DNA of 64,000 bases from the NCBI RefSeq assembly GCF_000282595.1, contig NZ_AKIZ01000017.1, positions 1 through 64,000 of the forward strand, written 5' to 3'. The notes below the pieces were generated by a model. It had not been told where the DNA came from and ran no database searches. It was given only the letters and a program-made list of their open reading frames with translations. Within the stretch, counting starts at the first letter, position 1; every line of letters begins with the position of its first letter. The DNA is from Phyllobacterium sp. YR531. GTDB lineage: Bacteria; Pseudomonadota; Alphaproteobacteria; Rhizobiales; Rhizobiaceae. Made by a program: the position numbers and the translations under genes. Shown piece after piece: positions 46,516 through 64,000 of this stretch.

Positions 46516-47420
46516 GTACCCAAAGCAAAGGGCTGACGGCCTGGCTCACGACAGAAGAGCCTGCAAGCGCCACCCATGCGGCCTTTCAAAATGCCTGGCG
46601 TGTCTGGTCACGCTTTGCGTCGAATCCGCTTGGTATCGCCGGATTGATTATCATCCTTCTTCTCGTATTCATTGCGATTTTCGTCCCGTGGCTGGCCCCA
46701 TATTCTCCATTCGAGCAAAACCTCCGGGAAGCGCTTGTGGCACCCAACAGTCAGCATCTGTTTGGCACTGATGAGCTTGGCCGGGATATTCTCAGCCGTA
46801 TCCTTTGGGGTAGTCGCATTACGCTTTCAATCGTCATGATTGTGAGCGTCATTGTAGCACCGATAGGTCTTCTGGTTGGATGTATCGCCGGATATTATGG
46901 TGGTTGGGTAGACACCATTCTGATGCGCATCACTGAGTTGTTCCTCTCCTTTCCAAGTCTGATATTGGCGCTCGCTTTTGTTGCGGCACTCGGGCCAAGT
47001 CTCAACAATGCAATTATTGCCATTGCCCTCACGCAATGGCCGCCAATCGCGAGACTCGCCCGCGCGGAATCATTGAATTTGCGCAAGCGCGATCACATCT
47101 CGGCAGTGCGTCTTATGGGGGCTTCGAGCATACGGATTATACTGGGCCATATTGCCCCGCTATGCATACCATCCGTGATTGTACGCATAACGCTCAATAT
47201 GGCCGGTATCATCCTGACGGCTGCAGGTCTCGGCTTTCTTGGTCTTGGTGCACAGCCACCGAGTCCTGAATGGGGCGCTATGGTTTCAACCGGCCGGCGC
47301 TTCATGCTTGACAGTTGGTGGGTCGGAACCATTCCGGGCATTTCCATCCTGTTTGTCAGTCTGGCTTTCAACCTTGTCGGTGACGCTTTGCGCGATGCAC
47401 TCGACCCGAGGCAGGAGTAG
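46512..47420 (+). CDS. ABC transporter permease (DppC-like)
   Basis: A 302-residue permease partner. The N-terminal cytoplasmic extension (residues 1-40) and six helices match DppC/OppC. Recognisable are the HLFGTDELGRDILSRILWGSRI motif, the coupling loop SLNLRKRDHISAVRLMGASSIRII and PPSPEWGAMVS near the C-terminus. It starts inside the stop of the preceding gene. Confidence 0.92.
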   Translation: MSTQSKGLTAWLTTEEPASATHAAFQNAWRVWSRFASNPLGIAGLIIILLLVFIAIFVPWLAPYSPFEQNLREALVAPNSQHLFGTDELGRDILSRILWGSRITLSIVMIVSVIVAPIGLLVGCIAGYYGGWVDTILMRITELFLSFPSLILALAFVAALGPSLNNAIIAIALTQWPPIARLARAESLNLRKRDHISAVRLMGASSIRIILGHIAPLCIPSVIVRITLNMAGIILTAAGLGFLGLGAQPPSPEWGAMVSTGRRFMLDSWWVGTIPGISILFVSLAFNLVGDALRDALDPRQE

Positions 47421-47424
47421 AGCC

Positions 47425-48255
47425 ATGAGCGACACGCTCCTTTCCGTTAAAGATCTCCGGATAAGTTTCAATGGCGCTGCCGGGTCGTTTGACGCGGTGC
47501 GCGGGGTTTCTTTCGACCTTGGCCGCGAAAAGCTTGGTATTGTAGGAGAATCCGGCTCTGGCAAAAGTATGACGGGGCGCGCCATCATGCGCCTCACGCC
47601 ACCGTCAGCCATGGTCAAGGCGGAGCACATACAGCTTGGGGATGTCGATATTCTTCATGCATCCGAGAAGACAATGTACGGTATACGGGGTCGCCGCATC
47701 GGCCTCATTATGCAGGACCCGAAATACTCACTGAACCCTGTTGTCAGTGTTGGCGAGCAGATCGCTGAAGCTTACCGTATTCACGCGCGGGCAACATCAT
47801 CGCAGGCACGTGAGAAAGCTGTGGCAATGCTGGGTGCCGTGCAAATACGGGATCCAGAGCGGGTCTATCGCATGTATCCGCATGAAATGTCAGGCGGAAT
47901 GGGTCAGCGTATCATGATTGCCATGATGCTTGTCTCCGAGCCTGAAATATTGATTGCTGACGAAGCGACATCTGCATTGGACGTCACCGTGCGGCTGGAG
48001 ATCCTTAATCTGCTGAATGAACTTGTCGAGAAGCGCGGGCTTGGCTTGATCTTCATCAGCCACGATCTCAATCTCGTTCGCCGATTCTGCGACCGAGTGC
48101 TGATCATGTATCGCGGCCGGGTGGTTGAAACGCTAAAAGCCAGCGAGCTTGGGCAGGCAACCCATCCCTATACGCGAGGGCTGCTTGAGGCGATGCCGCG
48201 CATACACGCGTCACGCAAGCGTTTGCCTATTCTGCAAAGGGATGAAGCATGGTGA
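47425..48255 (+). CDS. ABC transporter ATP-binding protein (DppD-like)
   Basis: A 276-residue ATPase. Walker A GESGSGKS is near residue 40, the signature is MSGGMGQR, and Walker B reads LIADEATSALDVTV, with Ala where most members have Pro, a mild deviation. The family C-terminus (YTRGLLEAMPR) is present. It starts 4 bases after dppC at ATG 47425; the longer in-frame extension into dppC is not a real start. It forms the heterodimeric motor with the next gene. Confidence 0.92.
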   Translation: MSDTLLSVKDLRISFNGAAGSFDAVRGVSFDLGREKLGIVGESGSGKSMTGRAIMRLTPPSAMVKAEHIQLGDVDILHASEKTMYGIRGRRIGLIMQDPKYSLNPVVSVGEQIAEAYRIHARATSSQAREKAVAMLGAVQIRDPERVYRMYPHEMSGGMGQRIMIAMMLVSEPEILIADEATSALDVTVRLEILNLLNELVEKRGLGLIFISHDLNLVRRFCDRVLIMYRGRVVETLKASELGQATHPYTRGLLEAMPRIHASRKRLPILQRDEAW

Positions 48256-48259
48256 CAAA

Positions 48260-49048
48260 ATGAGTGGTTCAGTCATCGAAATAGACAATCTGAATGTCAC
48301 GTTTGGCGAAGGTACAGATGCGCGCCGTGCAGTCGATGGGGTTAGCTTTTCAGTCAATCGCGGCGAAACTTTCGGCCTTGTCGGCGAATCCGGATCGGGC
48401 AAGTCAACGATTTTGCGGGCAATCACCGGTCTCGTGCATGGCGACGCAGATACTCTACGGGTTGCCGGTGAAGACATCCGCACGAAACGCGGACGAGAAT
48501 TTTATCGTAAGGTGCAGATGGTCTTTCAGGATCCTTATGAAGCGCTGCACCCGCGCCACACTGTTTGGCGTCAACTGATGGAACCTGCCAGAATCCAGGC
48601 AATTCCGGATGCCGAGGCACGTGGCCATGCAGCACTTGATTCCGTCGGCTTGAGTAGGGCTTTGCTCTGGCGTTATCCCCATCAGCTTTCCGGCGGGCAA
48701 AGGCAGCGTGTTGCAATCGCCCGTGCGCTGATGTCCGGGCCAGATATATTGCTTCTGGATGAACCCACATCAGCGCTTGATGTCTCGGTACAGGCCGAAA
48801 TTCTTAACCTGCTCAGTGATCTGCAGGATGAGCGAGGCCTGACGTACCTAATGGTCAGTCACGATCTCGGCGTTGTTGCCCATATGTGCAAACGCACGGC
48901 AGTAATGCAGGCTGGCAAGATCGTTGAGACGCTGGATGTGGAGGCGCTCATTAATGGCGGCACAACACAGGAATACACAAAAAAACTCATCGCAGCGAGC
49001 GAAGCTTACGGTGAAGACCCTGCTGAACTTGCCGCAGTACATGCATAA
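48260..49048 (+). CDS. ABC transporter ATP-binding protein (DppF-like)
   Basis: A 262-residue ATPase with Walker A GESGSGKST, signature LSGGQRQR, Walker B ILLLDEPTSALDVSVQ and the H-loop VSHDLG. It completes the importer. ATG 48260 lies 4 bases after the dppD stop with a weak site GGTGA; an alternative ATG at 48242 overlaps dppD and gives six more residues. Its C-terminal segment (TQEYTKKLIAASEAYG) matches the family. Confidence 0.9.
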   Translation: MSGSVIEIDNLNVTFGEGTDARRAVDGVSFSVNRGETFGLVGESGSGKSTILRAITGLVHGDADTLRVAGEDIRTKRGREFYRKVQMVFQDPYEALHPRHTVWRQLMEPARIQAIPDAEARGHAALDSVGLSRALLWRYPHQLSGGQRQRVAIARALMSGPDILLLDEPTSALDVSVQAEILNLLSDLQDERGLTYLMVSHDLGVVAHMCKRTAVMQAGKIVETLDVEALINGGTTQEYTKKLIAASEAYGEDPAELAAVHA

Positions 49049-50882: not shown

Positions 50883-53003
50883 TCACGCGCCAGACTCTCG
50901 AACCAGCACAGTGAGGACACGGCGCCAACCGCGTGCGAGGAGACTCTCTGCCCGCCCGTCAACAAGCAGAATCCCGCTTTGCGTTTGGGTCAGCTCTGGA
51001 GCAGCGCCGGTAACATTTGCAGTTACAGCATATTGAGCTGACACCGGCAGGAAGCGGCCCTTTGATGCGGGATGAACCGCGAGCTTGCCGCCAAACTGGG
51101 AAGTGAGTTGCGGAACTTCAATCTGTTTTGCGCTGGAGACTGCGAAGCCGCTGAGCGCCACTTCAAGTCTGTTTTGCGTCAAGTCATCGGGAATAAAAAA
51201 TCCGCTGGCTCCTTCCTCAACACGTGCTCTGTCTTCGCCGCCGATGTATCCGCGGATCACAGCTTTTCCAGGACTCGCCAGATAGGCGAATTGATCTTTA
51301 CGCGAGACCCATTGTCCGGGAGCAATCTCACCGTTGAGGTCAGCAATCTTGCCATCGAATGGCGCTCGGATGACCAGCTTGGCTTCACGTTCGGTCAATC
51401 CGCCGCGTTTGGCAATGAGCCGGTTAAGTTCATTCTCAACGACGTTTTTCTGGGTGAGGTCTTCAGAGCTTGCGCCAATCCGGGCAAGCCGGCGTTTTGC
51501 GAGGGCAATTTCAATGTCCGCAAGCTCGCGCTCCTGAACGAGAGCTGGTGAAGCGACAACGAAGAGAATGTCGCCCTTCGCTACAGTCTGGTTGCGTTTT
51601 ACATTTATCTGCTCAACACGACCGGGTTCTTCGGAATAGAGTCTTACAAAAGTTTCGGGCAGCAGGATTGCTGGCGCTCTTACCTGGGTCGACAGCGGCA
51701 ATGCCAACAGGACAATGCCCACGGTAGCAATTGCCAGTGTCACGTAAGTCCGTCGGGCTTTAAAAATATCCTCTCGCATGGACCACCATTCTTTCAGTTC
51801 AGACCATACGGGGCGGATCATGAAAAACCCTACCTCGACGGCAAACAGCACTATTCCAACAAGCTTGATTGTAAAGTGATAAACAAGGAGCGCGATACCG
51901 ACATAAAGCAGCAGCCGGTAAATCGTGGTGCATATGGCATATATCGTTACGATGGCATCGAGTCGTGGAGGAAAATACTCAGGCGGAGGATAACCCAATC
52001 CGAAAAGGAATTCACGCAGCCGCCAGCGCATATGCCTGAACGCCCGGGGCTGCAGATTTTCGATCCCGAGAAAGTCAGCAAGTATGTAATAGCCATCGAA
52101 GCGCATGAACGGGTTGGTATTGATCACAAGGCTAAGCAACCAGCCTACAGCGGCCAGAACGAAAATCGCGCTGCGCAAGGGACCATCTGGAATAAATGCC
52201 CAGAGGAACAATGCAAATGCCGCCACGCAAAGCTCGGTAATAACGCCTGCACAATCGATCAGAATTCTGGAACGGCGTGATTTGAGCCGCCAGGCATCGG
52301 AAACGTCCGTGTAGAGCAGTGGGATCATCACCATGAAGGCAACGCCCATTGTTGGTATGCGGCATCGATACATATGCGCGACATAGGCATGGCCCAACTC
52401 GTGCAAAGATTTTATCACGGCTACGGAAACGAGCGATAGGGCTGCGCCTTCCAGCGAAAACACGTATGGAAAAGTCCGCAGAAACGCGTCCCATTGCCGG
52501 GAGACGAGATAAAGACCTGCCAGTCCGACGAGCGCAGCAAATACAAGAAATGCCCGGGTGAACAAGAACGACACATAGGGCCAGGATGCACGAATAAAAT
52601 TCTGCGGTCGTACGAGCGGTATACGAAAGAACAGGTAATTGTGGATCAGCTGCATAAACAGCGAGTGACGGCGATTTGCGCTTTCATGAAGGCCGCGCCA
52701 GCTACCGGAAAGAGGCTGGGCAAGAAAGAAATTGGCGTCAAGCATTCGCATGACAAGGCCGATCTCTTCAACGTCAGTTTGCCTGCCAAACCGCTGCTGC
52801 AAAGCGAGGTTCAATCTGTTGAGGGTGGGACTGCGATTCCAGAGCGACAGAAGCTGGAACATTTCATAAGTAATACGAAAAAAACGATTGCGGATCGGAT
52901 CGAGAACCACCCAGACAGGCGCTCCGGAATAACTCGCCCCGCCGCGGAAAATCTGCAAATCTTCACGCAGCGCCGGTAAGGGCAAATCCGTAGGCGTTGT
53001 CAT
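50883..53003 (-). CDS. Site-2 protease (M50)-HlyD fusion protein
   Basis: A 706-residue membrane protein. Residues about 10-100 form a soluble N-terminal domain resembling a PqqD/RRE-type peptide-binding fold (PVWVVLDPIRNRFFRITYEMFQLLSLW). Residues about 140-405 hold membrane helices with the zinc-protease motif HELGH (201-205), YTDVSDAW (231-238) and the second S2P motif NPFMRFDGYY (Asp303). A HlyD-type periplasmic region (residues 440-706) follows, with a barrel-sandwich hybrid (EEPGRVEQINVKRNQTVAKG, VIRAPFDGKIADLNGEIAPGQWV) and a short hairpin. All catalytic residues are intact, so it is predicted to be an active intramembrane protease that is also an adaptor. It overlaps the preceding HlyD gene by 4 bases. 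Last gene of the secretion operon. Confidence 0.85.
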   Translation of the reverse strand: MTTPTDLPLPALREDLQIFRGGASYSGAPVWVVLDPIRNRFFRITYEMFQLLSLWNRSPTLNRLNLALQQRFGRQTDVEEIGLVMRMLDANFFLAQPLSGSWRGLHESANRRHSLFMQLIHNYLFFRIPLVRPQNFIRASWPYVSFLFTRAFLVFAALVGLAGLYLVSRQWDAFLRTFPYVFSLEGAALSLVSVAVIKSLHELGHAYVAHMYRCRIPTMGVAFMVMIPLLYTDVSDAWRLKSRRSRILIDCAGVITELCVAAFALFLWAFIPDGPLRSAIFVLAAVGWLLSLVINTNPFMRFDGYYILADFLGIENLQPRAFRHMRWRLREFLFGLGYPPPEYFPPRLDAIVTIYAICTTIYRLLLYVGIALLVYHFTIKLVGIVLFAVEVGFFMIRPVWSELKEWWSMREDIFKARRTYVTLAIATVGIVLLALPLSTQVRAPAILLPETFVRLYSEEPGRVEQINVKRNQTVAKGDILFVVASPALVQERELADIEIALAKRRLARIGASSEDLTQKNVVENELNRLIAKRGGLTEREAKLVIRAPFDGKIADLNGEIAPGQWVSRKDQFAYLASPGKAVIRGYIGGEDRARVEEGASGFFIPDDLTQNRLEVALSGFAVSSAKQIEVPQLTSQFGGKLAVHPASKGRFLPVSAQYAVTANVTGAAPELTQTQSGILLVDGRAESLLARGWRRVLTVLVRESGA

Positions 53004-54400
53004 ATTCCCAAACGCTGCCGAATCGTCGCGATGGGCCGGCGAAACAGGTAATAGGCCAGCGGCACCTTGTCGCCCGATATCTGGGCAGTACCGCGAATGC
53101 CAAGACGCATTGCTTCTGGTGCATCTTCCAATGTGGCGTAGACGCGATAGGCCAAGACATCGCCCTCGATCATCTGGGCCTCAAAGGAAGCTGCTCTAAC
53201 GGTCGCCCGAATTGGCTGTAGAGGATCACTGTCCAGAAATGCGCGTACAGGCGCTCCGGCTTTAACCGCAATGGCGTCGGCAACAGGAACATCTATACGG
53301 ATTTGGGTGCGCTGCGGATTGGCTACCTCCATTAAACGCTCTCCGGTGGATACAGGGCGTCCAATCAGATCACGCTTATCGGTATACATGACTACACCGG
53401 CTTCCGGTGATGTAACTTGTGTGCGTGCCAGTAAATCGCTGGCGTAGTTGCGTTTGGCAGTTGCCAAAGATAATTCCGTGCCGGCAATTGCCAGATCCCC
53501 GCGCAGTTTTGGATCGGCTATTGCACCCTGAGTTACCTGTTTCAGCTTTGCCTGAGCAACGTTGACTTCCTGCTCGGCAACGGAGAGCTCATTGCGCAAT
53601 GCGGTATCCGACATGCGTAGCAGAAGCTGTCCGGCAGCAACATTTGCATTGGGGTCAACTTCGATCGCTTCGATAACGCCATCGATTGGTGCTGCAACGA
53701 TCCGTGGTTCAACGGGGACAATTTCCGTAGGAGCCAGTACGGTCAGTGGCACAGGTATGAATCCGGCAATGACGGCTATGGCGACACCGGCAAGCAGAAA
53801 TGGCTTCAGCCGAAGCCGGCGTTTGAGTTTGCGTGTCCCTGTCAATGCCGACCAGGAATGGCTGTAGGTTTCAGCAAGCCGGGTTACAACAACCAGATCG
53901 GTCTGGTTCCAAGGCACTTCACGGGCCAGCAGCATGCCGCCAAAGACATATCCGTCACGTAGTTTCAGCGGAAACCATGCGAGAAACCGATAGGGAAAAT
54001 TCTTGTGCTCTTCATCATCAGGCGGGCAATAGGCAGGCAGTGTAAACTCACGAATCTCGTGAAGGCCAATATCTGCCTCAAGCGCTGCGACAACACTTTC
54101 GATCCAGCGGATTCGCGGTGAGTCCCGTTCAACTTTTCCCATTGCCGAAACGGCTGCAACGCGTTGAGGCTTGCCCTTTCGGGTGAAGACAAAAACCTGA
54201 CGTGCCCGGCTGAGCTTGGGCGTTTCATTGGCGATCAGAAAGGTCAGTTCCCCTACTGTCTCTGCCTGCCTTGTATCGGCTTCAATCTTGAGAAGGAGAT
54301 CAAAAGCCTGCTGATTGCGTTGCTCCAGTTTAACCGGGCTGACTGGTTGGAGCTGAACCGGCTCTTGCAAAGGGGCTTTCTCAACCATTGGGAACCGCAA
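53000..54400 (-). CDS. HlyD-family adaptor with GAF-like N-terminal domain
   Basis: A 466-residue inner-membrane adaptor. Residues about 30-190 form a cytoplasmic GAF-like domain (AFDLLLKIEADTRQAETVGELTFLIANE, RQVFVFTRKGKPQRVAAVS, VFGGMLLAREVPW). One membrane helix (200-220) leads to a HlyD domain with a lipoyl half (GVIEAIEVDPNANVAAGQLLLRM), a helical hairpin of 80-90 residues and a beta-barrel (TQIRIDVPVADAIAVKAGAPVRA). Cytosolic sensing domains on adaptors are unusual. It overlaps both neighbours (20 bases with the upstream adaptor, 4 with the M50 fusion). Confidence 0.85.
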   Translation of the reverse strand: MRFPMVEKAPLQEPVQLQPVSPVKLEQRNQQAFDLLLKIEADTRQAETVGELTFLIANETPKLSRARQVFVFTRKGKPQRVAAVSAMGKVERDSPRIRWIESVVAALEADIGLHEIREFTLPAYCPPDDEEHKNFPYRFLAWFPLKLRDGYVFGGMLLAREVPWNQTDLVVVTRLAETYSHSWSALTGTRKLKRRLRLKPFLLAGVAIAVIAGFIPVPLTVLAPTEIVPVEPRIVAAPIDGVIEAIEVDPNANVAAGQLLLRMSDTALRNELSVAEQEVNVAQAKLKQVTQGAIADPKLRGDLAIAGTELSLATAKRNYASDLLARTQVTSPEAGVVMYTDKRDLIGRPVSTGERLMEVANPQRTQIRIDVPVADAIAVKAGAPVRAFLDSDPLQPIRATVRAASFEAQMIEGDVLAYRVYATLEDAPEAMRLGIRGTAQISGDKVPLAYYLFRRPIATIRQRLGI

Positions 54401-55148
54401 ACTTTGCTGGCCCGCTCATTCCGGGCAGAACGCCGGCAGTGTCGCCTGTAAAGCGTGCGGTGATCTTTACCGTCTGGCTGACAGGATCAACGACTGCAGC
54501 AACACGTGACACTTCTGCAGGAATTGTCGTCCCGGTTTCTTCAATTGTTACGTTGAATGACGCGCCGGGCTTCAGCCATCTGAGCCACACTCCCGGCACG
54601 AGCATATCTATCTCAAGCCCGGTATCACCGACTATCTGCATGAGGGGCGCTGTGCGATCGGGAAATTCATGTGCATGAGCGCGCATTGTTGCAATGCGCC
54701 CGTCAAACGGAGCTTTGATCGTGCAACGTGAAAACTTGCTTTGAAATGCCTCCATTTCGGCCGTTGCCTGCTCGATTTTCGCCTTTGCGAGGTCAACCTC
54801 AAACTTGCCGACAGCGTTCAATTTTGCCAGACGTGCACTATTGTCGGCCGTCAGCTGCTCGGCACGCAGCACTGCCTGAGCTGACTTCAATTGGGCAGCC
54901 AGGTCTCCGCAGTCAAACACAGCCAGAACTTCGCCCTTCTTGAAAGATTGACCTTCCCGAAATGGCAGGGACTCGATCCGTGCGTCTATATCCGTAGAAA
55001 TCCATGACTCATTGACAGCCCGAACAATTCCCCGGATTGCTCCGCCATTTTCCTGGGCGCCTGCGGTGCCTGAAAGGACGATGCACGTCATGAATGCACA
55101 GAGATTCAAGGCGCTCGTCAGCCGGGTTGCGTTGCCAAGGGCCGCCAT
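54381..55148 (-). CDS. Periplasmic HlyD/RND-type adaptor protein
   Basis: A 255-residue adaptor with an N-terminal signal peptide (ALNLCAFMTCIVLSGTAGAQE), so it is fully periplasmic rather than inner-membrane anchored. It shows the lipoyl half DARIESLPFREGQSFKKGEVLAVFDCGDL, a helical hairpin and the closing half CTIKAPFDGRIATMRAHAHEF. It is short because the membrane-proximal domain is missing. ATG 55148 follows AAGGAGA. It lies 59 bases after the TolC-family gene and overlaps the GAF-HlyD gene. Confidence 0.85.
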   Translation of the reverse strand: MAALGNATRLTSALNLCAFMTCIVLSGTAGAQENGGAIRGIVRAVNESWISTDIDARIESLPFREGQSFKKGEVLAVFDCGDLAAQLKSAQAVLRAEQLTADNSARLAKLNAVGKFEVDLAKAKIEQATAEMEAFQSKFSRCTIKAPFDGRIATMRAHAHEFPDRTAPLMQIVGDTGLEIDMLVPGVWLRWLKPGASFNVTIEETGTTIPAEVSRVAAVVDPVSQTVKITARFTGDTAGVLPGMSGPAKFAVPNG

Positions 55149-55207
55149 GACTGTCTCCTTTCCAGATCCTTTGGGACCAAAGGTACAGCCATATTGACCG
55201 GTCGTCA

Positions 55208-56677
55208 TTATTTTACTCCGGCAACGACCAAAGTGCCCTTCTCGCCGCGTTCGATCCACATGTCTTTGAGCTGTGCGGAGATTGTACTGACGGGAGCATC
55301 AGTGCTGAGGCCTGCGGGGAAGGGATCAAGCCCGAGAGAGGCGTAGACATTGGCATAGGCATTCTGCAGGTCGGCATAGGCCATATCCAGCTTGGCATCG
55401 GCCAGGAGCGTATTCATCTCCTCACGAATGAGAATCTGCTCGCTGGTACGCTGCGCGGCGGTTTCGGAGCGGACCTGTGTTAAAAGCCGGTGAGAAACAT
55501 TGGAAAGCGCCGAGGCTGTGGAATAGGATTTCTGCAGATGTCCATAACGCACGCGGCTGATATGAACCTGTGTCATGACAGCCATGGCGACGGAAAGCGC
55601 CCTTGCATCCAGCGCGGCCTTTTGCGCATCCACCTTCTTCATCAAGGCGGGAGTGCTGGTGAGCTTCAAGAGGTTCCAGCTGACCTTGGATCCCCATGAG
55701 ATCCAGTCATTGGCAGCGATGAACTTGTTGGAGTCATAATTGACGCCCGCATAGATGTTGAAGTTGGGCAGAAGCTCGAGCATTGCTGCATCGACTTCCT
55801 TGTCATTGATGCGCATGCGATAGGCAACTTCCCGCATTTCGGGACGATTGCTGGCGGCGATGGCGAAAAGACCATGAAGATCATTGGGCAAGCCAAGCTT
55901 GGTGCCGCGCCGCTTGGGCAGGGCCAGGCTGAAATTGCTGCCGGGCTCGACATTCATCAGCGCCGCAAGCTGGCTCTTGGCAACCTTGAGTTCGCCCTCC
56001 AGCATTTCGACTTCACGCTTGACCTGGATCAGCTCCCGCTCATAGGTGAGCGCGACCAGCGGCGAGCTTTCCTCACCGGTGGCCAGTTGCTTGGTATCGC
56101 GCAGGGCTCTGGACACACGCCCCTCAAGCCCGCGCATGCGGCCAACCAGCCGCTCATAGCTGACAGCCCGCCAATAGGCGGTGCGCACATCCTCGATCAC
56201 GCGATTGACGATTTTGCGCTTCATCTCCTGCTGGATGAGGGCTTCGTCGGCAGCTTGCTTGGCGCGGACATAGGACAGGCCGAAATCCAGAATGTTCCAC
56301 GAGAACGTCAGGTCCGACGACAGAATATCGGTGTCGCGGGTGGATGGCGTCGACGAATCAGCATCGTTGCGGCCAGCATACCCCGATGCAGCGACGAGGT
56401 TAGGCAACATATTATAGCTTGCCAGTTCAACATTGCGGATTTTGAGCGCCGCTTCCATGATCTCGACTTTAGTGTCGAGATTATATTTCAACGCCCGTGC
56501 CATAGCATCATAAAGCGTGATGGATCCCGTTACGGGCTCTTGATTTGCAGTGGCTCTGGCAAGCTTTTCATTGGCGAACATCAAATTCTGTTCTGCAGTA
56601 AGCGGGTCCATTTTAACCGCGCAACCCGCAATTAGGACACTTAACGACAGCGCCAATACCTGCTTCTTCATGCCCAT
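55208..56677 (-). CDS. TolC-family outer-membrane efflux lipoprotein
   Basis: A 489-residue outer-membrane channel protein. A lipoprotein signal ends at LIAGC (Cys19 counting from ATG 56677), followed by the OEP domain: long amphipathic helices (YDAMARALKYNLDTKVEIMEAALKIRNVELASYNMLPNL), a membrane-strand segment LTFSWNILDFGLSYVRAKQAADEAL and the second repeat NWISWGSKVSWNLLKLTS. It is the first gene of the minus-strand secretion operon and should form the exit duct for the giant protein encoded divergently. GGGG lies just upstream of the start; ATG 56671 is an alternative. Confidence 0.88.
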   Translation of the reverse strand: MGMKKQVLALSLSVLIAGCAVKMDPLTAEQNLMFANEKLARATANQEPVTGSITLYDAMARALKYNLDTKVEIMEAALKIRNVELASYNMLPNLVAASGYAGRNDADSSTPSTRDTDILSSDLTFSWNILDFGLSYVRAKQAADEALIQQEMKRKIVNRVIEDVRTAYWRAVSYERLVGRMRGLEGRVSRALRDTKQLATGEESSPLVALTYERELIQVKREVEMLEGELKVAKSQLAALMNVEPGSNFSLALPKRRGTKLGLPNDLHGLFAIAASNRPEMREVAYRMRINDKEVDAAMLELLPNFNIYAGVNYDSNKFIAANDWISWGSKVSWNLLKLTSTPALMKKVDAQKAALDARALSVAMAVMTQVHISRVRYGHLQKSYSTASALSNVSHRLLTQVRSETAAQRTSEQILIREEMNTLLADAKLDMAYADLQNAYANVYASLGLDPFPAGLSTDAPVSTISAQLKDMWIERGEKGTLVVAGVK

Positions 56678-56701
56678 CGCACCCCGAAAATCATAATGCA
56701 A

Positions 56702-57005
56702 ATCACTTGGACTTGACGTTCAACCTTGACTAGCAATAACCTTTGTTTGCAACTCTTGGCAACTGGTCAAAATAAAAGTTGAGGGATGAAAAGAATTTAA
56801 CACGCGCTATAGCCCCTTATTGAAAGGGTTTAGCCCGATGTTTCGACATTTCCAACTTTAATATATCAGAGAGCATTTGTACTTTGAACTATAGAAACGT
56901 TCTATGCCTAAGTTGTGCGGGGTTTGATTTGCAACCAACCGTTGACCGCCGGACAAAATGCGACAACACTGCAACTAGACTGAATCTCTTTATAGGATGC
57001 TTGGA
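56702..57005. promoter_or_regulatory. Divergent promoter region of the secretion operon and the giant protein
   Basis: About 300 bases without a gene, holding the two divergent promoters. Several TTGAC-like words (for example near 56711-56730) may be -35 boxes, but I cannot assign them. No strong palindrome, riboswitch or small gene is visible. AGGA lies about 12 bases before the giant gene start. Confidence 0.45.
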
Positions 57006-60000
57006 ATGAACGAGCGTTTCCGCTTACCGAAGGCCGCCGCAGACAAGAAACAAAGCTTGTCTGCATCCAAGCAATCCGCCGCCCGCTACGCCTCCATGCT
57101 GATGGAGTTGGAGCAGCGTATCGCCTTTGACGCCGCCGGTGTTGCCACTGTGGAAAAGGCCAATGAGAAAGCGCCTACGCCTGAAGTTGATGCCCAACAT
57201 GAGGGAGCGGCGGACAAGTCATCTGCCAAGGATCATTCAGCACTGGTTGAGGCGCTGAACAAGACGGACGTCGCCAAAACGGAAGCGCCCAAAGCTGCTG
57301 AGCCCGTTCAGGTCGTCTTCATTGATAGTTCGGTGACGGACTATAAGGATCTGCTGAAAGACATTAAAGGCGACTATAAGACAGTAATCCTGAACAGTTC
57401 GACCGACGGCGTGGAACAGATGGCGCAAGTGCTGAAAGGCATGGACAATGTCAGTGCTGTCCACATTTTGTCGCACGGAAACCAAGGCGTTCTCAATCTC
57501 GGCATGGGTACGCTGACCGAGCAGACAATGTCGGGACGCTATTCTGATGAACTGCAGAGCATACGCGGGTCACTCACGGATGATGCTGATATTCTGATCT
57601 ACGGTTGTAATTTTGCTGAAGGGGAGAGTGGCGCTCGCGCAGCTACCCTTATGAGTAATCTTACCGGCGCAGACGTTGCTGCTTCAACAGATATAACCGG
57701 CAGTTCCCGTCATGGTGGTGACTGGACACTGGAATATCGTGCCGGCGTTATCGATACGGATGCTTTGCGCGCCGATAATTGGGACCACATGCTGGCCCAG
57801 ACGACTATAAATCCTGGCGGTGGTATTCTCGCCGATGGTTCGGATGGATTGAAGATTTATGTCACAAATCTTGGACAGTTCCAGGTTACTTACCAAGGCA
57901 AGAACCAGTTTTACAGTAACACCATAACGGATACGAGCGTTAATCTTTTCAACGGCATGTATATGTCCGTTGGAAATCGCGTTATTGGTCCTGATACCGG
58001 CGCTGAAAATATGACGAAGGTCGCTTGGGTATCCGGCGGCGCTCAAACATTGAGCGGTACAGGCACCGCCGCTGATCCATACGTGGTTGCCACAAGACTG
58101 TATTACGATGCCAATTCCAATGGAGTCTATAATGCTGCTACAGATGTTCAGGTAATCGTTACCACATCATACATTGCAGGCACCAAGTACTTCACCAACA
58201 ATGTGACAGTAACTCCGCCCACCAGTAACAATCTCGCAATCAAATTCTACCATGCGGCAGATACGTATCTGGGTGGTTCGGATGCGGGGCCTGCCTATGC
58301 GCTTGCTCCCGGTATCGGGTCGACAACAAGCACCTCTGCCGATCTGCAGGTCATCGGCGTACGGCGTGATGCCGGAACTGCAAGTGAGGTATTCGTCGGT
58401 TTTGCCGAAGTAGATGGCGGACGCCAGTTCGACCGATTCTATTCGGGCCTCTACAATGGCACCGGGCTTTATGGCGGTATTGCCAACGGCGGCGATATTA
58501 CCAATACGATTACGACTGCTGCCAACACCGATAACGGGCTTGGGGTGCAGTTCAATCTCGGGTCAGGAAATACGCCAACCAGTTTCAGTTACCGGCTTGT
58601 GTTCGACAGTGATACGACGCTTGACCTTGATGCAAACAACAGCACTGCCGCCGGCAACAATTATGTAACGTCATATGGTGTCGGCAGTAATACACCTGTG
58701 AATGTCGTTGACAGCGATATTGCGATTACTAACGTCGTTGCCGATATCTCACGGGCAACGGTCACTCTTACCAATCTTCAGGCTGGTGACACCTTGAGCT
58801 TGCTGGGTGTGCTGCCTGCAGGGATCACGGCGTCCGTAGCTGGAAATGTTGTTACGCTGACCGGCAGTGCCAGCGAGGCCTCCTATCAGGCAGCGTTGAG
58901 GCAGATTGTTTTTAATACTTCCAGCTCAGTGCTTACGAACCGGAGCCTTACTGTTTCGGTATTCAATGAAATCTCCTCCGAGGCGACATCTGCCAATACA
59001 ACGATCAATGTCAGCCGCGCGCCGATTGTTGATCTCAATTCGGGAACGAATCCCTCGCAGATCATCACCAACGGGGCTGCGCCCGGTGGTGGTGGCTGGG
59101 CTGCGGGAGGAGCAACAGGAGGAGTCATAAACGGGGGATATGCCTGGAGCGGTGATAGCGCTACAGGCACGTTGAGGCAGAATGGCATCACCGGCTGGGA
59201 TGTTGGCTCAGCACCTTCTGGCGCGGCACAACTTACTTTTGACCTTGCGTGGAACAATGGTATCCCTGACAATGGCGCGGCTGCAACGCTGGAAGTGTCG
59301 ATCGGCGGTGTTGTTTATGCCCGCATAACAACGGGTACCATTGTCGGTACACCAAACGTTGCAACGGTTACGTTTCTGAACGGCGCATCCGGTTCCCCTT
59401 CTTTAATTGGAAGCTCGGCAGCGGGGGCGTGGACCCCGGCATCAATTACTCTGAATTTGCCATCGACAGTGGCTGCTACCGGTGATCTCATATTCAGTTA
59501 TGCGGCCGGGACAGGCGGGCGTGACGATATCTTCATCGACAATGTCAGCGTGTTTACGCAAGTTGATGCGACGGCAGGAAACAATTTCACCAACTCCTAT
59601 ACGGAAAATGGAGTTGGTGTTTCAATTGCCGATACTGACAATACAGTGCGCGATGTCGACAGCACGACAATGGCATCCGCGACGATCGTCCTGACAAATG
59701 CCTTTGCTGGTGACATGCTTAATATTGGCAGTCTTCCTGCAGGAATCACCGGATCGATTGATACATCGATTGCCGGTCAGATTACTCTGACACTATCAGG
59801 AACGGCATCAAAAGCTGATTATGCAGCGGCGATCCGCGCTATTACGTTCTCAAGCTCCAGTGAAAACCCCTCGACGACCAATCGTGTGATCAATGTCACG
59901 GTCAACGATGGCGCACTCAATTCAGCTGTTTCGACAACGACAATTACAGTTGCTGCCGTCAATGATGCGCCCGTAAACACACTGCCGGTTGCCGGATGGA

Positions 60001-63000
60001 CGACCAATGAAGATACGAGCTTCGTTCTGAATGGTCTTTCGGTAACCGATCCGGATGCAACGGGTATCATATCAGTCAGCCTCACAGTGGGCTCCGGCAC
60101 GCTAACAGCGGTCAATGGCACCGGTGTTACAATATCGGGTTCCGGTACAGGCACGCTGATCTTGAGCGGAACGCTTGCCAACATTAATGCCTATTTGAAC
60201 TCTGCGTCAGCACCAACCTATGTGCCTGTTGACAACGCCAATGGTCCGGTTTCATTGACCATGGTAACCAATGATGGCGGGAGCTCCGGTACGGGTGGAC
60301 CATTGTCGGATACTGATGTCCGAACAATTACAATCGTTCCTGTCAATGATGCGCCAATGGTGGATCTTAACGGTAATCCGCCTGTCAATGTTCCTGTTTC
60401 GGGTGGTGGCACCTTCTCGCAACCAAGCGTTGATGCAGGCACAGAACGCACAAATTCCGTAACGTTCACGCTCGATAATGGCCAACTGGTGGACCAGACC
60501 CGTGCTGTAGTCTCATTGACGACAATCGACGATGCATTCCGAATTATTGTCAATGGCCGCGCAATTTCCGGTGGAATCATAGGAGTGGATGCAAGCAATC
60601 CTGCTGGCACACGGCTGGCATTCGGCGATGGCAGCACGGTTGGGACCGGATGGATTGCCAATGTGAATGGCTTGCCTCGTGTCGAAGTGCGTATCACTGA
60701 AACCGGCATAGAGTTCTGGGGAACGCGATCCACGACATCTACTGTGCTTGAGCAGCTTTTCTTCCCCGCAGCGCTGTCACTTCCAAATTTTGTGGCCGGT
60801 ACAAACACAATTACAATTGCCAATGCGGATGGCAATGGCGCGGAATCGATGAGTGGTGTGGTGTCGGTCACGACTCAGAGTGCGGATTTCTCCACCTCGT
60901 ACACGGAGCAGGGCGCAGGCATAGCTATCGTCGATAACGATACGATAATTATCGATATCGACAGTGCCAATATGTCATCGGCAACTATTGTCATCACCAA
61001 TGGTCAGCCTGGAGACCTTCTTGCGATAAATGGTGCTCTTCCCGCGGGGATTACCGCGAACTGGAATGCTGCAACCTTTACCATGACATTGACCGGCTCT
61101 GCTTCTAAGGCGGCCTATGAAACGGCGCTGGAGCAGATTCGTTATTCGTCAAGTTCGGATAATCCCACAGCCGGTGGCTCCGAACCATCACGCACCCTGA
61201 CAGTTGTTGCCAATGACGGCCAGCTGGACTCCAATGTTGCGACCACGACGATTGCCATCACAGCCGTCAATGATGCACCGGTGAACACGTTGCCTGGGAG
61301 TTATTCGGGCAATGAGGATACGAATATTCCACTGACGGGGATTTCGATTTCGGATGGCGATGCCAATGGCGGGACGATCACGGTTACGCTGAATGTCGGC
61401 TCTGGTACGCTGAATGCTGCGGCAGGCGGCAGTGTGACGGTTGGCGGTTCGGGCACCGGAACGCTGACGCTGACGGGTACGCTTGCCAATATCAACGCCT
61501 ACCTTGCGGCCACATCTCCGACATTCACGCCGGGTGCTGATTTCAATGGCCCGGTCACATTGACGATGACGACCAATGATGGCGGCAACACGGGTACAGG
61601 CGGTCCGCTGACGGATGTCGATACACGCACCATCACGGTTGTGCCGGTCAATGATGCTCCTGTGCTCGATCTTGATGCATCGGGTGCAGGAACAGGCTAT
61701 TCGACGAGCTATACGGAGAATGGCACCGGCGTTGCCATTGTTGATACGGACAGTTCCATCACCGACATCGACAATGCCAATATTGCTTCGGCTAGCATTG
61801 TTATCGCCAATGGTCAGGCAGGGGATATCCTTGCCATCAGTGGTGCATTGCCAGCTGGAATTACAGCGACATGGAATCCGGCAACATTCACGCTGACCTT
61901 GTCAGGCTCTGCCTCCAAGGCTGCCTATGAAACGGCGCTGGAACAGGTTCGTTATTCATCCAGTTCGGATAATCCGTCGACCACGCCGCGCAGCATCAAT
62001 ATCTCGGTCAATGATGGGGCGGCAAACTCCAATGTTGCGGTTTCAACCGTCAATGTGGTTGCGGTCAATGATGCGCCGGTCAATGGCATTCCCGGTGGAG
62101 GTTATACGGTCAATGAGGATACACCCCTGCCGCTGACCGGCCTTTCGGTTACCGATCCTGATGCCAATGGCGGCACCATGACGATAACGCTGAGCGTGGG
62201 TTCGGGCACATTGTCGGCTGCCAATAATGCCGGAGTTACGGTTGGTGGTAATGGGACCGGCACGCTGACGCTGACGGGTACACTGGCCAATATCAATGCC
62301 TATCTCGCTTCAGCTTCTGCACCTTCCTATACGCCGGTTGCCGACTTCAATGGTTCTGTCACGCTGACGATGACGAGCAGTGACGGTGCGTTGAGCGATA
62401 CGGACACGGCTACGATCACGATCAATCCGGTCGCTGATATCGCCAATGATACGGCCACGACCAATGAAGACACCGCTACCATCATCAATGTGAATGGCAA
62501 TGACAGCTTCGAGAATGCCGGCCACCAGATCACGGCGATTAATGGCCTGCCGATTGCAGTTGGCGGAACGGTTGCAGTTTCCAACGGCACGGTGCTGCTC
62601 AATGCCAATGGCACGCTGACCTTTACACCCAATGCCAATGTCAACGGCAGTGCCAGCTTCACCTATACCGTCACATCCGGCGGTACCACCGAAACAGCAA
62701 CCGTCGATGTCGCCATCACGGCTGTCAATGATGCACCGGTGAATAGTGTACCTTCTACTCAAACAACAAATGAAGACACTGCTGTCGTTTTTGCACCATC
62801 CTCGGGAAATGCACTTACAGTTACCGATGTTGACGGGGGCGTGTTGACCGTCACCATCAGCGTTACGAATGGCACATTCTCGCTTGCCGGCATTGCAGGG
62901 CTGACCTTCACGGCAGGCGATGGAACCGCCGACGGAACGATGACCTTCTCCGGTACAGCGGCTGCAATCAATGCCGCATTGACAGGGGCGGCCTATGTTC

Positions 63001-64000
63001 CGACTGCTGATTATAACGGATCGGCACAACTCAGCATTCAAACCAGCGACGGTGCACTTGCCGACAGCGATACAGTAGACATCAACATCGTTGCGGTTGC
63101 TGATATTGCTGATGACAATGCGACAACCGATGAAGACGTTGCGGTTAACATCCCTGTGCTGGCCAACGATAGTTTCGAGAATTCCGGGCGTGCAATCACC
63201 GCCATAAACGGGATCGCAATTATTGCGGGTGGACCAGCCATTAATGTCAGCAATGGACAGGTCCAGCTCAATGCCAACGGCACACTGACCTTTACACCAA
63301 CCACTGATTTCAATGGCCAGACGAGCTTTACCTATACGGTTACTTCTGGCGGGCGGACGGAAACTGCGACCGTCAATGTCGATGTCGCGTCTATCAACAC
63401 ACCACCGACAAATACCCTGCCAGCCGGTTATACAACGCTTGAAGACAATCCGCTCGGTTTGACCGGGTTGCAAATATCCGATGCCGATGCAGGAACCGGA
63501 AGTGTTTCGGTCACGCTCTCCGTCAATGCGGGTACATTGTCAGCTCTTGCCGGATCAAATGTGTCGGTTTCCGGTTCCGGTACTGGCACACTGATTTTGA
63601 CGGGCACACTTGCTGATATCAATGCATATCTCTCGGCAGCTTCGAGACCTACCTTTAGCCCGGCAGCCAATGCTTCCGGTACCGTCACTTTGACGATGAC
63701 CACTAATGACAACGGTAATACAGGTGGACCGGCTCTGATAGATGTCGATACGTCGACGATCACCATAACGCCAGTCAATGATGCGCCTTCTGGCGTTGAC
63801 CAGACAGTGACTGTCAACGAAGACACAACATTTACCTTTACCCCGGCAAATTTTGGCTTCACCGACCCTAATGACAACCCCGGAAACACACTGGCGGCTG
63901 TCGTTATCACCACTATACCGCTCAACGGCACTTTGGCGCTGAACGGAACCGCGGTGACTGCTGGCCAGGTTATACTGGCGAGTGATATCGCCAATCTAAC
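57006..64000 (+). CDS. Giant DUF4347 repeat protein, probable secreted adhesin (3' end beyond window)
   Basis: An uninterrupted reading frame of 2,331 codons from ATG 57006 to the right edge; the stop lies outside. There is no ordinary signal peptide. Residues 1-100 are Ala/Lys/Glu-rich and contain LEQRIAFDAAG (residues 35-45), resembling the LEPR-XLL motif at the N-terminus of many large exported proteins. A DUF4347 domain spans residues about 103-264, with AVHILSHGNQG (His157) and ILIYGCNFAEG (Cys201). After about 58,650 two kinds of cadherin/VCBS-like modules alternate, about 120-135 residues each, with VNDAPVNTLP, NEDT, GSGTLTAV, SGSGTGTLTLTGTLANINAYL and SYTENGTGVAIVD. A non-repeat Gly-rich insert lies near 59,030-59,560. 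The repeats and lack of Cys fit a calcium-binding, type I-secreted adhesin. It is divergent from the TolC/HlyD/M50-HlyD operon, its probable export machinery. Confidence 0.9.
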   Translation, partial: MNERFRLPKAAADKKQSLSASKQSAARYASMLMELEQRIAFDAAGVATVEKANEKAPTPEVDAQHEGAADKSSAKDHSALVEALNKTDVAKTEAPKAAEPVQVVFIDSSVTDYKDLLKDIKGDYKTVILNSSTDGVEQMAQVLKGMDNVSAVHILSHGNQGVLNLGMGTLTEQTMSGRYSDELQSIRGSLTDDADILIYGCNFAEGESGARAATLMSNLTGADVAASTDITGSSRHGGDWTLEYRAGVIDTDALRADNWDHMLAQTTINPGGGILADGSDGLKIYVTNLGQFQVTYQGKNQFYSNTITDTSVNLFNGMYMSVGNRVIGPDTGAENMTKVAWVSGGAQTLSGTGTAADPYVVATRLYYDANSNGVYNAATDVQVIVTTSYIAGTKYFTNNVTVTPPTSNNLAIKFYHAADTYLGGSDAGPAYALAPGIGSTTSTSADLQVIGVRRDAGTASEVFVGFAEVDGGRQFDRFYSGLYNGTGLYGGIANGGDITNTITTAANTDNGLGVQFNLGSGNTPTSFSYRLVFDSDTTLDLDANNSTAAGNNYVTSYGVGSNTPVNVVDSDIAITNVVADISRATVTLTNLQAGDTLSLLGVLPAGITASVAGNVVTLTGSASEASYQAALRQIVFNTSSSVLTNRSLTVSVFNEISSEATSANTTINVSRAPIVDLNSGTNPSQIITNGAAPGGGGWAAGGATGGVINGGYAWSGDSATGTLRQNGITGWDVGSAPSGAAQLTFDLAWNNGIPDNGAAATLEVSIGGVVYARITTGTIVGTPNVATVTFLNGASGSPSLIGSSAAGAWTPASITLNLPSTVAATGDLIFSYAAGTGGRDDIFIDNVSVFTQVDATAGNNFTNSYTENGVGVSIADTDNTVRDVDSTTMASATIVLTNAFAGDMLNIGSLPAGITGSIDTSIAGQITLTLSGTASKADYAAAIRAITFSSSSENPSTTNRVINVTVNDGALNSAVSTTTITVAAVNDAPVNTLPVAGWTTNEDTSFVLNGLSVTDPDATGIISVSLTVGSGTLTAVNGTGVTISGSGTGTLILSGTLANINAYLNSASAPTYVPVDNANGPVSLTMVTNDGGSSGTGGPLSDTDVRTITIVPVNDAPMVDLNGNPPVNVPVSGGGTFSQPSVDAGTERTNSVTFTLDNGQLVDQTRAVVSLTTIDDAFRIIVNGRAISGGIIGVDASNPAGTRLAFGDGSTVGTGWIANVNGLPRVEVRITETGIEFWGTRSTTSTVLEQLFFPAALSLPNFVAGTNTITIANADGNGAESMSGVVSVTTQSADFSTSYTEQGAGIAIVDNDTIIIDIDSANMSSATIVITNGQPGDLLAINGALPAGITANWNAATFTMTLTGSASKAAYETALEQIRYSSSSDNPTAGGSEPSRTLTVVANDGQLDSNVATTTIAITAVNDAPVNTLPGSYSGNEDTNIPLTGISISDGDANGGTITVTLNVGSGTLNAAAGGSVTVGGSGTGTLTLTGTLANINAYLAATSPTFTPGADFNGPVTLTMTTNDGGNTGTGGPLTDVDTRTITVVPVNDAPVLDLDASGAGTGYSTSYTENGTGVAIVDTDSSITDIDNANIASASIVIANGQAGDILAISGALPAGITATWNPATFTLTLSGSASKAAYETALEQVRYSSSSDNPSTTPRSINISVNDGAANSNVAVSTVNVVAVNDAPVNGIPGGGYTVNEDTPLPLTGLSVTDPDANGGTMTITLSVGSGTLSAANNAGVTVGGNGTGTLTLTGTLANINAYLASASAPSYTPVADFNGSVTLTMTSSDGALSDTDTATITINPVADIANDTATTNEDTATIINVNGNDSFENAGHQITAINGLPIAVGGTVAVSNGTVLLNANGTLTFTPNANVNGSASFTYTVTSGGTTETATVDVAITAVNDAPVNSVPSTQTTNEDTAVVFAPSSGNALTVTDVDGGVLTVTISVTNGTFSLAGIAGLTFTAGDGTADGTMTFSGTAAAINAALTGAAYVPTADYNGSAQLSIQTSDGALADSDTVDINIVAVADIADDNATTDEDVAVNIPVLANDSFENSGRAITAINGIAIIAGGPAINVSNGQVQLNANGTLTFTPTTDFNGQTSFTYTVTSGGRTETATVNVDVASINTPPTNTLPAGYTTLEDNPLGLTGLQISDADAGTGSVSVTLSVNAGTLSALAGSNVSVSGSGTGTLILTGTLADINAYLSAASRPTFSPAANASGTVTLTMTTNDNGNTGGPALIDVDTSTITITPVNDAPSGVDQTVTVNEDTTFTFTPANFGFTDPNDNPGNTLAAVVITTIPLNGTLALNGTAVTAGQVILASDIANL
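58650..63780 (+). repeat. Alternating cadherin/VCBS-like repeats in the giant gene
   Basis: In-frame repeats at the DNA level. The stretch around 61,095-61,166 (ending TTCGGATAATCC) recurs with few changes 810 bases later at 61,905-61,976, a spacing of 270 codons, equal to one pair of modules. GTCAATGATGC is the recurrent junction word (for example 59,959, 60,347, 61,266 and 62,064). The similarity decays from the centre outward, implying successive duplications. Confidence 0.8.

Follow-up and report, generated by a model that had tools for sequence, protein, structure and literature searches.

Here, we describe a locus of Phyllobacterium sp. YR531 in which the gene for a giant protein on the forward strand diverges from a reverse-strand operon encoding a TolC-family channel, two HlyD-type adaptors (one of them with a single predicted TM segment) and an M50 protease fused to HlyD (Table 1). 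The window, meaning the whole stretch of 64,000 nucleotides that was analysed, is positions 1-64000 of contig C17, which extends to 91,663 in an assembly of 4,997,302 bases. The arrangement given in the initial annotation is borne out by the ORFs and by Pfam.

Gene content of the locus

Table 1. Genes and domains of the putative export locus in the window, with the models that identify them.
Feature	Position	Strand	Basis
M50-HlyD fusion, 706 aa	50883..53003	-	ORF; Pfam Peptidase_M50 and HlyD_3
Parts of the M50-HlyD fusion	residues ~9-105, PqqD-like; site-2 protease core with HELGH 201-205 and Asp303; several TM segments; residues ~440-706, HlyD part		
Inner-membrane HlyD adaptor, 466 aa	53000..54400	-	Pfam HlyD; one predicted TM at 196-229; weak GAF-like N-terminus
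HlyD adaptor, RND type, 292 aa as ORF	54381..55259	-	Pfam HlyD; TIGR01730 above cut-off
TolC-family outer-membrane channel, 497 aa as ORF	55208..56701	-	Pfam OEP
Giant putative substrate	56997..64000, cut by the window; full end at 73559 on the contig	+	Pfam DUF4347, cadherin/Big_9

The two divergent ORFs start 295 bp apart, these being mechanical first starts; the real starts of the TolC gene and of the RND-type HlyD gene probably lie later than their ORF starts. The locus holds HlyD-type adaptors and a TolC-type channel, none of which attains the type I subfamily cut-offs (TIGR01843 and TIGR01844). In having an RND-type adaptor and TolC it resembles the tripartite efflux pumps (RND, MFS or ABC), but no RND, MFS or ABC pump was seen in the operon. 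The protein first described as a GAF-HlyD keeps the HlyD half of that name; its GAF-like part is weak, with no GAF match in the protein itself and a PF01590 match in 3 of 25 homologues.

Gene names in the flanks were assigned by eye from the ORFs. To the right of the giant (in positions 63001-91663) lie a D-Ala-D-Ala carboxypeptidase gene with a SPOR-like end and amino-acid uptake genes, and farther along the contig a LysM protein gene followed by genes resembling those of type III secretion systems or flagella, up to the contig end at 91663. To the left, at 47239-49048, are two ATPases of the oligopeptide-importer type, so the earlier statement that the window holds no ATPase stands for exporters only.

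Conservation and spread of the protease-adaptor fusion

Pfam Peptidase_M50 spans residues 191-338 of the fusion protein and matches all 31 homologues. The site-2 protease residues had been read as intact, and this is upheld: H201, E202, H205 and D303 are invariant in the 31-row alignment, and the copies of E. coli, Hafnia, Kosakonia and Magnetospirillum retain all four. The N-terminus is PqqD-like by profile comparison, residues 9-105 aligning with PqqD at 94.6% in HHalign against 0.6% or less for seven control windows, while the Pfam PqqD model matched one of the 31 homologues (E 0.15). Hydropathy predicts several TM segments in the protein. The M50 core is shared with the maturation proteases of daptides and epipeptides (NF041824 and NF058609); the daptide model NF041824 scores 154 bits over residues 35-394, under its cut-off of 300 bits. 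Unlike those proteases, the protein described here is fused to an HlyD adaptor and stands beside a giant substrate rather than a short peptide.

Of 8,000 candidates scored in a search for M50-HlyD proteins, 6,712 were homologues at E 0.001. The closest named homologue among the matches listed is that of Phyllobacterium sp. 628 (83% identity), and the relatives of the genome are rhizobial. From a genome scan we kept the best 80 of 590 candidate loci; the scan patterns included FDGY, so that conservation of FDGY in these 80 is by construction. The 80 loci, to which we refer as canonical, span alpha-, beta- and gammaproteobacteria, Nitrospira and SAR11, and their holders include rhizobia, Hyphomicrobium, Azospirillum, sphingomonads, Nitrospira, Pelagibacteraceae, Pseudomonas, Pectobacterium, Methylomonas and Colwellia, among others. 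The GAF-like HlyD lies directly upstream of the M50-HlyD gene in 71 of the 80, and an HlyD upstream of the GAF-like HlyD in 64. TolC is found within 54 of the loci and a DUF4347 ORF within 37, many loci being cut by contig ends. In five Pseudomonas loci (L068, L073, L075, L077 and L082), a sulfotransferase-like ORF was seen by eye near the locus in all five and a glycosyltransferase-like ORF in four.

The M50-HlyD gene is constant in the homologous loci, which were themselves found through it; an independent check comes from genome counts. The DUF4347 profile used for the loci was built from the same loci with the tag region included, and the genome counts use Pfam PF14252. Among 299 genomes of the phylum, 55 have a canonical M50-HlyD and 69 have DUF4347 at a score above its cut-off; 50 have both (hence 50 of the 55 M50-HlyD genomes), 5 the M50-HlyD only, 19 DUF4347 only and 225 neither, giving an odds ratio of 118 (Fisher p 4e-35, kinship ignored). 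Here a canonical M50-HlyD is one scoring at least 400 bits, a threshold of our own chosen once it was seen that no score fell between 321 and 474 bits, and at most three candidates per genome were scored. Under the same limit, 40 of 85 canonical M50-HlyD genes have DUF4347 on their contig at a distance of 25 kb or less. Of the five M50-HlyD genomes lacking DUF4347, G235 carries a tagged giant at its locus; the other four show a truncated giant or none.

The locus also occurs on mobile DNA. The order giant-TolC-HlyD-HlyD-M50-HlyD is found between IS and Tn3 remnants in E. coli G5, E. coli KMi029 (on the chromosome) and Hafnia, and the identical five-gene order is carried by Kosakonia and Magnetospirillum plasmids. 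The stretch from TolC to M50 occurs in 24 of 5,426 E. coli genomes, 22 of which hold most of it, and in 27 plasmid records (Escherichia 18, Citrobacter 8, Hafnia 1); the giant was inspected in the records of E. coli G5, E. coli KMi029, Hafnia and Kosakonia. In E. coli KMi029, the cassette sits in a genomic island adjoining a tRNA-Thr gene.

The giant protein and its N-terminal tag

In full, the giant protein comprises 5,520 aa with one Cys and ends at position 73,559 of the contig. It carries DUF4347 at residues 106-256 (E 4e-49) and tandem-95/cadherin/Big_9 repeats, and no RTX repeat was found in its 5,520 aa. It had been introduced as a LEPR/DUF4347 giant, of which the DUF4347 part is confirmed and the LEPR part must be amended: the protein has LEQRIAFDA near residue 40, and the LEPR-XLL model NF012209 does not match it even at E 10.

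LEQRIAFDA belongs to a tag that we report as a new feature of the substrates of this locus, with the consensus LExR-x-x-[F/L]-D-[A/G] (the x-x pair being hydrophobic) preceded by a basic stretch. The form LExR-hydrophobic-hydrophobic-F-D-[A/G] is present in all 37 DUF4347 ORFs whose N-terminus lies inside one of the 80 loci. The tag also occurs in all 11 genomes in which the giant is upstream, with L in place of F in three (G005, G305 and G308) and Y in a fourth (G314). The E. coli and Hafnia giants have LESRQLFDG and the Kosakonia giant LEPRMLFDG; the tag is absent from the short pMSR-1 substrate, and no tagged giant was seen beside the two M50-HlyD genes of one genome (G063). Many of the giants ran past the end of the stretch examined and are incomplete. 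Hydropathy is lower in the tag region than in the N-termini of the TolC proteins from the same loci (median 1.32 versus 2.33), which argues against an ordinary Sec signal; the window's giant, at 1.23, has no cleavable hydrophobic Sec signal as judged by hydropathy. The giants of L051 and L203 end in a hydrophobic hairpin rather than the usual tail.

Is the partner of the protease-adaptor the tag or the DUF4347 domain? For the 19 DUF4347 genomes without a canonical M50-HlyD, the stretches examined came from 17 and from G112, with G288 left out. The tag occurs in none of 20 DUF4347 ORFs from such genomes (17 loci; ORFs from 14 genomes), and a looser pattern matches two of these ORFs, within the DUF4347 domain. 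Tagged giants with no DUF4347 match exist as well (in L058, L193 and L207). DUF4347 as the export signal is weakened by both observations, and it is the LExR tag, more than DUF4347 itself, that goes with M50-HlyD. The proposal that the M50-HlyD protein is coupled to its substrate gains backing from this N-terminal tag, from the PqqD-like domain and from a sister clade with another tag (see below).

What might the protease do with a tagged giant? One option is a device for release or surface retention: the M50-HlyD complex would hold or cut the tagged N-terminus of a giant that is exported along a different path, much as LapD and LapG control LapA-type adhesins. LapA-type adhesins are retained and cleaved at their N-terminus, and the intact protease residues and the N-terminal position of the tag would suit such a role. 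Against this, a conduit is encoded in the locus itself, in the form of TolC and three adaptors, and no LapD- or LapG-like gene was noticed in the cassettes as annotated; we find this option quite unlikely. The LapA system is outlined in PMC6584795. The MRP adhesin of Pectobacterium (ECA3266), a candidate for the same system, was set apart by its published description, which is that of a type I system with LapG (PMC6963963, PMC6584795). The S-layer system of Methylomicrobium was likewise rejected as a match, being described as an ordinary PrtD-type system.

Taken together, we judge it likely that this is a dedicated locus for the export or display of LExR-tagged giants without an ABC exporter of its own.

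The export route and its motor

The initial annotation had considered an ABC ATPase to the right of the giant as the energy source. This did not hold: neither the ORFs nor a profile of 12 of the genome's own ABC exporters gave an ABC exporter from the giant to the contig end at 91,663, 27.7 kb past the window, and an ABC ATPase just past the window is thereby ruled out. The initial annotation named, as its own refutation, such an ATPase next to the giant combined with homologous loci mostly lacking M50-HlyD, and neither was the case. No ABC exporter was found in the flanks of any of the 80 canonical loci either; the profile matched 13 ORFs there, each over the ATPase half only, and it covers the full-length ATPase in a positive control from Phyllobacterium (L228). 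The locus shares with the type I systems (ABC-HlyD-TolC, including the LapBCE/LapA type) a TolC and HlyD-type adaptors beside a giant repeat protein; it differs in the lack of an ABC exporter, in having three adaptors with one fused to a protease, in the conserved N-terminal tag and in a giant without RTX repeats.

The ABC ATPase of a type I system could nonetheless be encoded elsewhere, the locus providing TolC and the adaptors and the M50 protein trimming the substrate as an accessory. Candidates exist: of the 15 ABC_membrane matches in our genome, two are PrtD-type ATPases above cut-off, encoded away from the locus; Nitrospira defluvii has one HlyB-type ATPase; and in Phyllobacterium sp. 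628 a type I HlyD/ATPase pair lies about 5 kb from the M50-HlyD gene. Moreover, type I secretion signals are C-terminal, and a C-terminal motif is enriched in the giants (24 of 43 tails versus 72 of 1370 internal 60-mers, by a pattern picked after the data were seen). The empty flanks of the 80 loci speak against such a system, as do other genomes with the locus. Six SAR11 genomes with the locus, perhaps incomplete, have eight ABC_membrane proteins, and the seven classified (that of L092 was left out) are MsbA- or PglK-like with none reaching the type I cut-off. Nitrospira UBC2 has six, the five classified being MsbA-like or of peptide-exporter types and none at the type I cut-off. Further counter-evidence is the absence of an ABC gene from the mobile five-gene cassettes of E. 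coli, Hafnia and Kosakonia, together with the giant's want of RTX repeats. On balance, we consider an unlinked ABC exporter unlikely.

Two side observations belong here. The Phyllobacterium sp. 628 locus (L228, on plasmid p_1) is reduced to the GAF-like HlyD and M50-HlyD genes, which adjoin an HrpK-domain gene and the type I HlyD/ATPase pair; TolC, HlyD and a giant were not found in it. A search of our genome for a C39 peptidase gave one weak domain match elsewhere and no lead.

A different motor is suggested by a sister clade. In a 60-row tree, the M50-HlyD proteins scoring low against the canonical profile and the canonical ones form two sides of one branch with support 100/100. A SecA-like ORF is present in 25 of 33 sister loci, with none in the stretch examined of the other eight. 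SecA_DEAD matches at E 1e-90 or better in seven of the eight sister ORFs scanned (that of L196 is weak), and the Walker A motif is retained in 22 of 27 sister SecA-like ORFs, being missing in L196, L261, L271 and fragments. Like ours, sister loci place M50-HlyD, HlyDs and, in some of them, TolC next to a giant whose N-terminus bears a LExR motif, here that of LEPR-XLL (NF012209); the sister motif ends in S-[A/G] whereas the canonical one ends in D-[A/G]. Although sister-locus giants are mostly cut, LEPR-XLL giants are annotated in one locus with SecA (L255) and one without (L256), NF012209 exceeds its curated cut-off in a locus without SecA (L186), and LEDRILLSA occurs in one with it (L270); the pairing of SecA with LEPR-XLL is therefore frequent and not strict. 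PMC10868602 mentions that one LEPR-XLL giant has RTX at its C-terminus, so that such proteins may use type I export too. Two sister-clade plasmid loci (L256 and L257) have a small DUF3467 gene between the giant and HlyD. In canonical loci, by contrast, a dedicated SecA is to be rejected, the SecA profile having no match in any of the 80; our own genome has one SecA, and SecA_DEAD matches just once in 24 of the 55 canonical genomes.

The absence of both an ABC exporter and a SecA-like gene from the canonical loci, widely conserved as these are, would also suit an inner-membrane channel formed by the protease-adaptor complex itself and driven by proton-motive force or by folding of the exported repeats. 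We know of no site-2 protease with channel activity, and the SecA-like gene mostly present in the sister-clade operon points, by analogy, to a Sec-type motor rather than a protease-built channel, which we regard as improbable. Since most sister loci carry a SecA-like ATPase next to M50-HlyD, SecA may be the motor, a proposal to which we would give nearly an even chance.

In light of these findings, we infer the following route and topology for SecA-powered export. The three HlyD-type adaptors and TolC would form an envelope-spanning conduit for tagged giant surface proteins, with two adaptors in the inner membrane, one of these fused to the PqqD-like domain and the site-2 protease. By analogy with the binding of peptide leaders by other domains of this kind, the PqqD-like domain would bind the tag; whether it reads the tag we consider evenly balanced. 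The site-2 protease would probably cut or release the tagged end of the giant, and the adaptors would hand the chain on to TolC. The motor would not be an ABC ATPase of the locus, and the inner-membrane step would most likely be powered by SecA, here the housekeeping SecA by analogy with the sister clade. As a whole, this ABC-free TolC/adaptor exporter, with a PqqD-protease-adaptor that reads and probably cleaves the tag and SecA as the likely motor, is our best explanation, held at somewhat less than even confidence.

More tentatively still, the locus may represent a separate class of Gram-negative secretion: SecA-powered and TolC-dependent, with no ABC motor, in which a PqqD/S2P/HlyD fusion couples cleavage of the LExR tag to export of the giant, which exists in two clades (with its own SecA-like ATPase or with the housekeeping SecA), and whose five-gene cassette travels. 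The motor that defines type I systems is absent from the locus, and we could find no counterpart of the protease-adaptor and tag. A survey of the open-access literature, in which four papers name DUF4347 and two LEPR-XLL, returned no account of this system.

If this is correct, Proteobacteria, Nitrospira and SAR11 would export many of their giant surface proteins without an ABC motor or an RTX signal, and a site-2 protease would work within a secretion machine. The substrates would be listable from sequence by their N-terminal tag, and the E. coli, Kosakonia and Rhizobium versions would make the question of the motor approachable by plain deletions.
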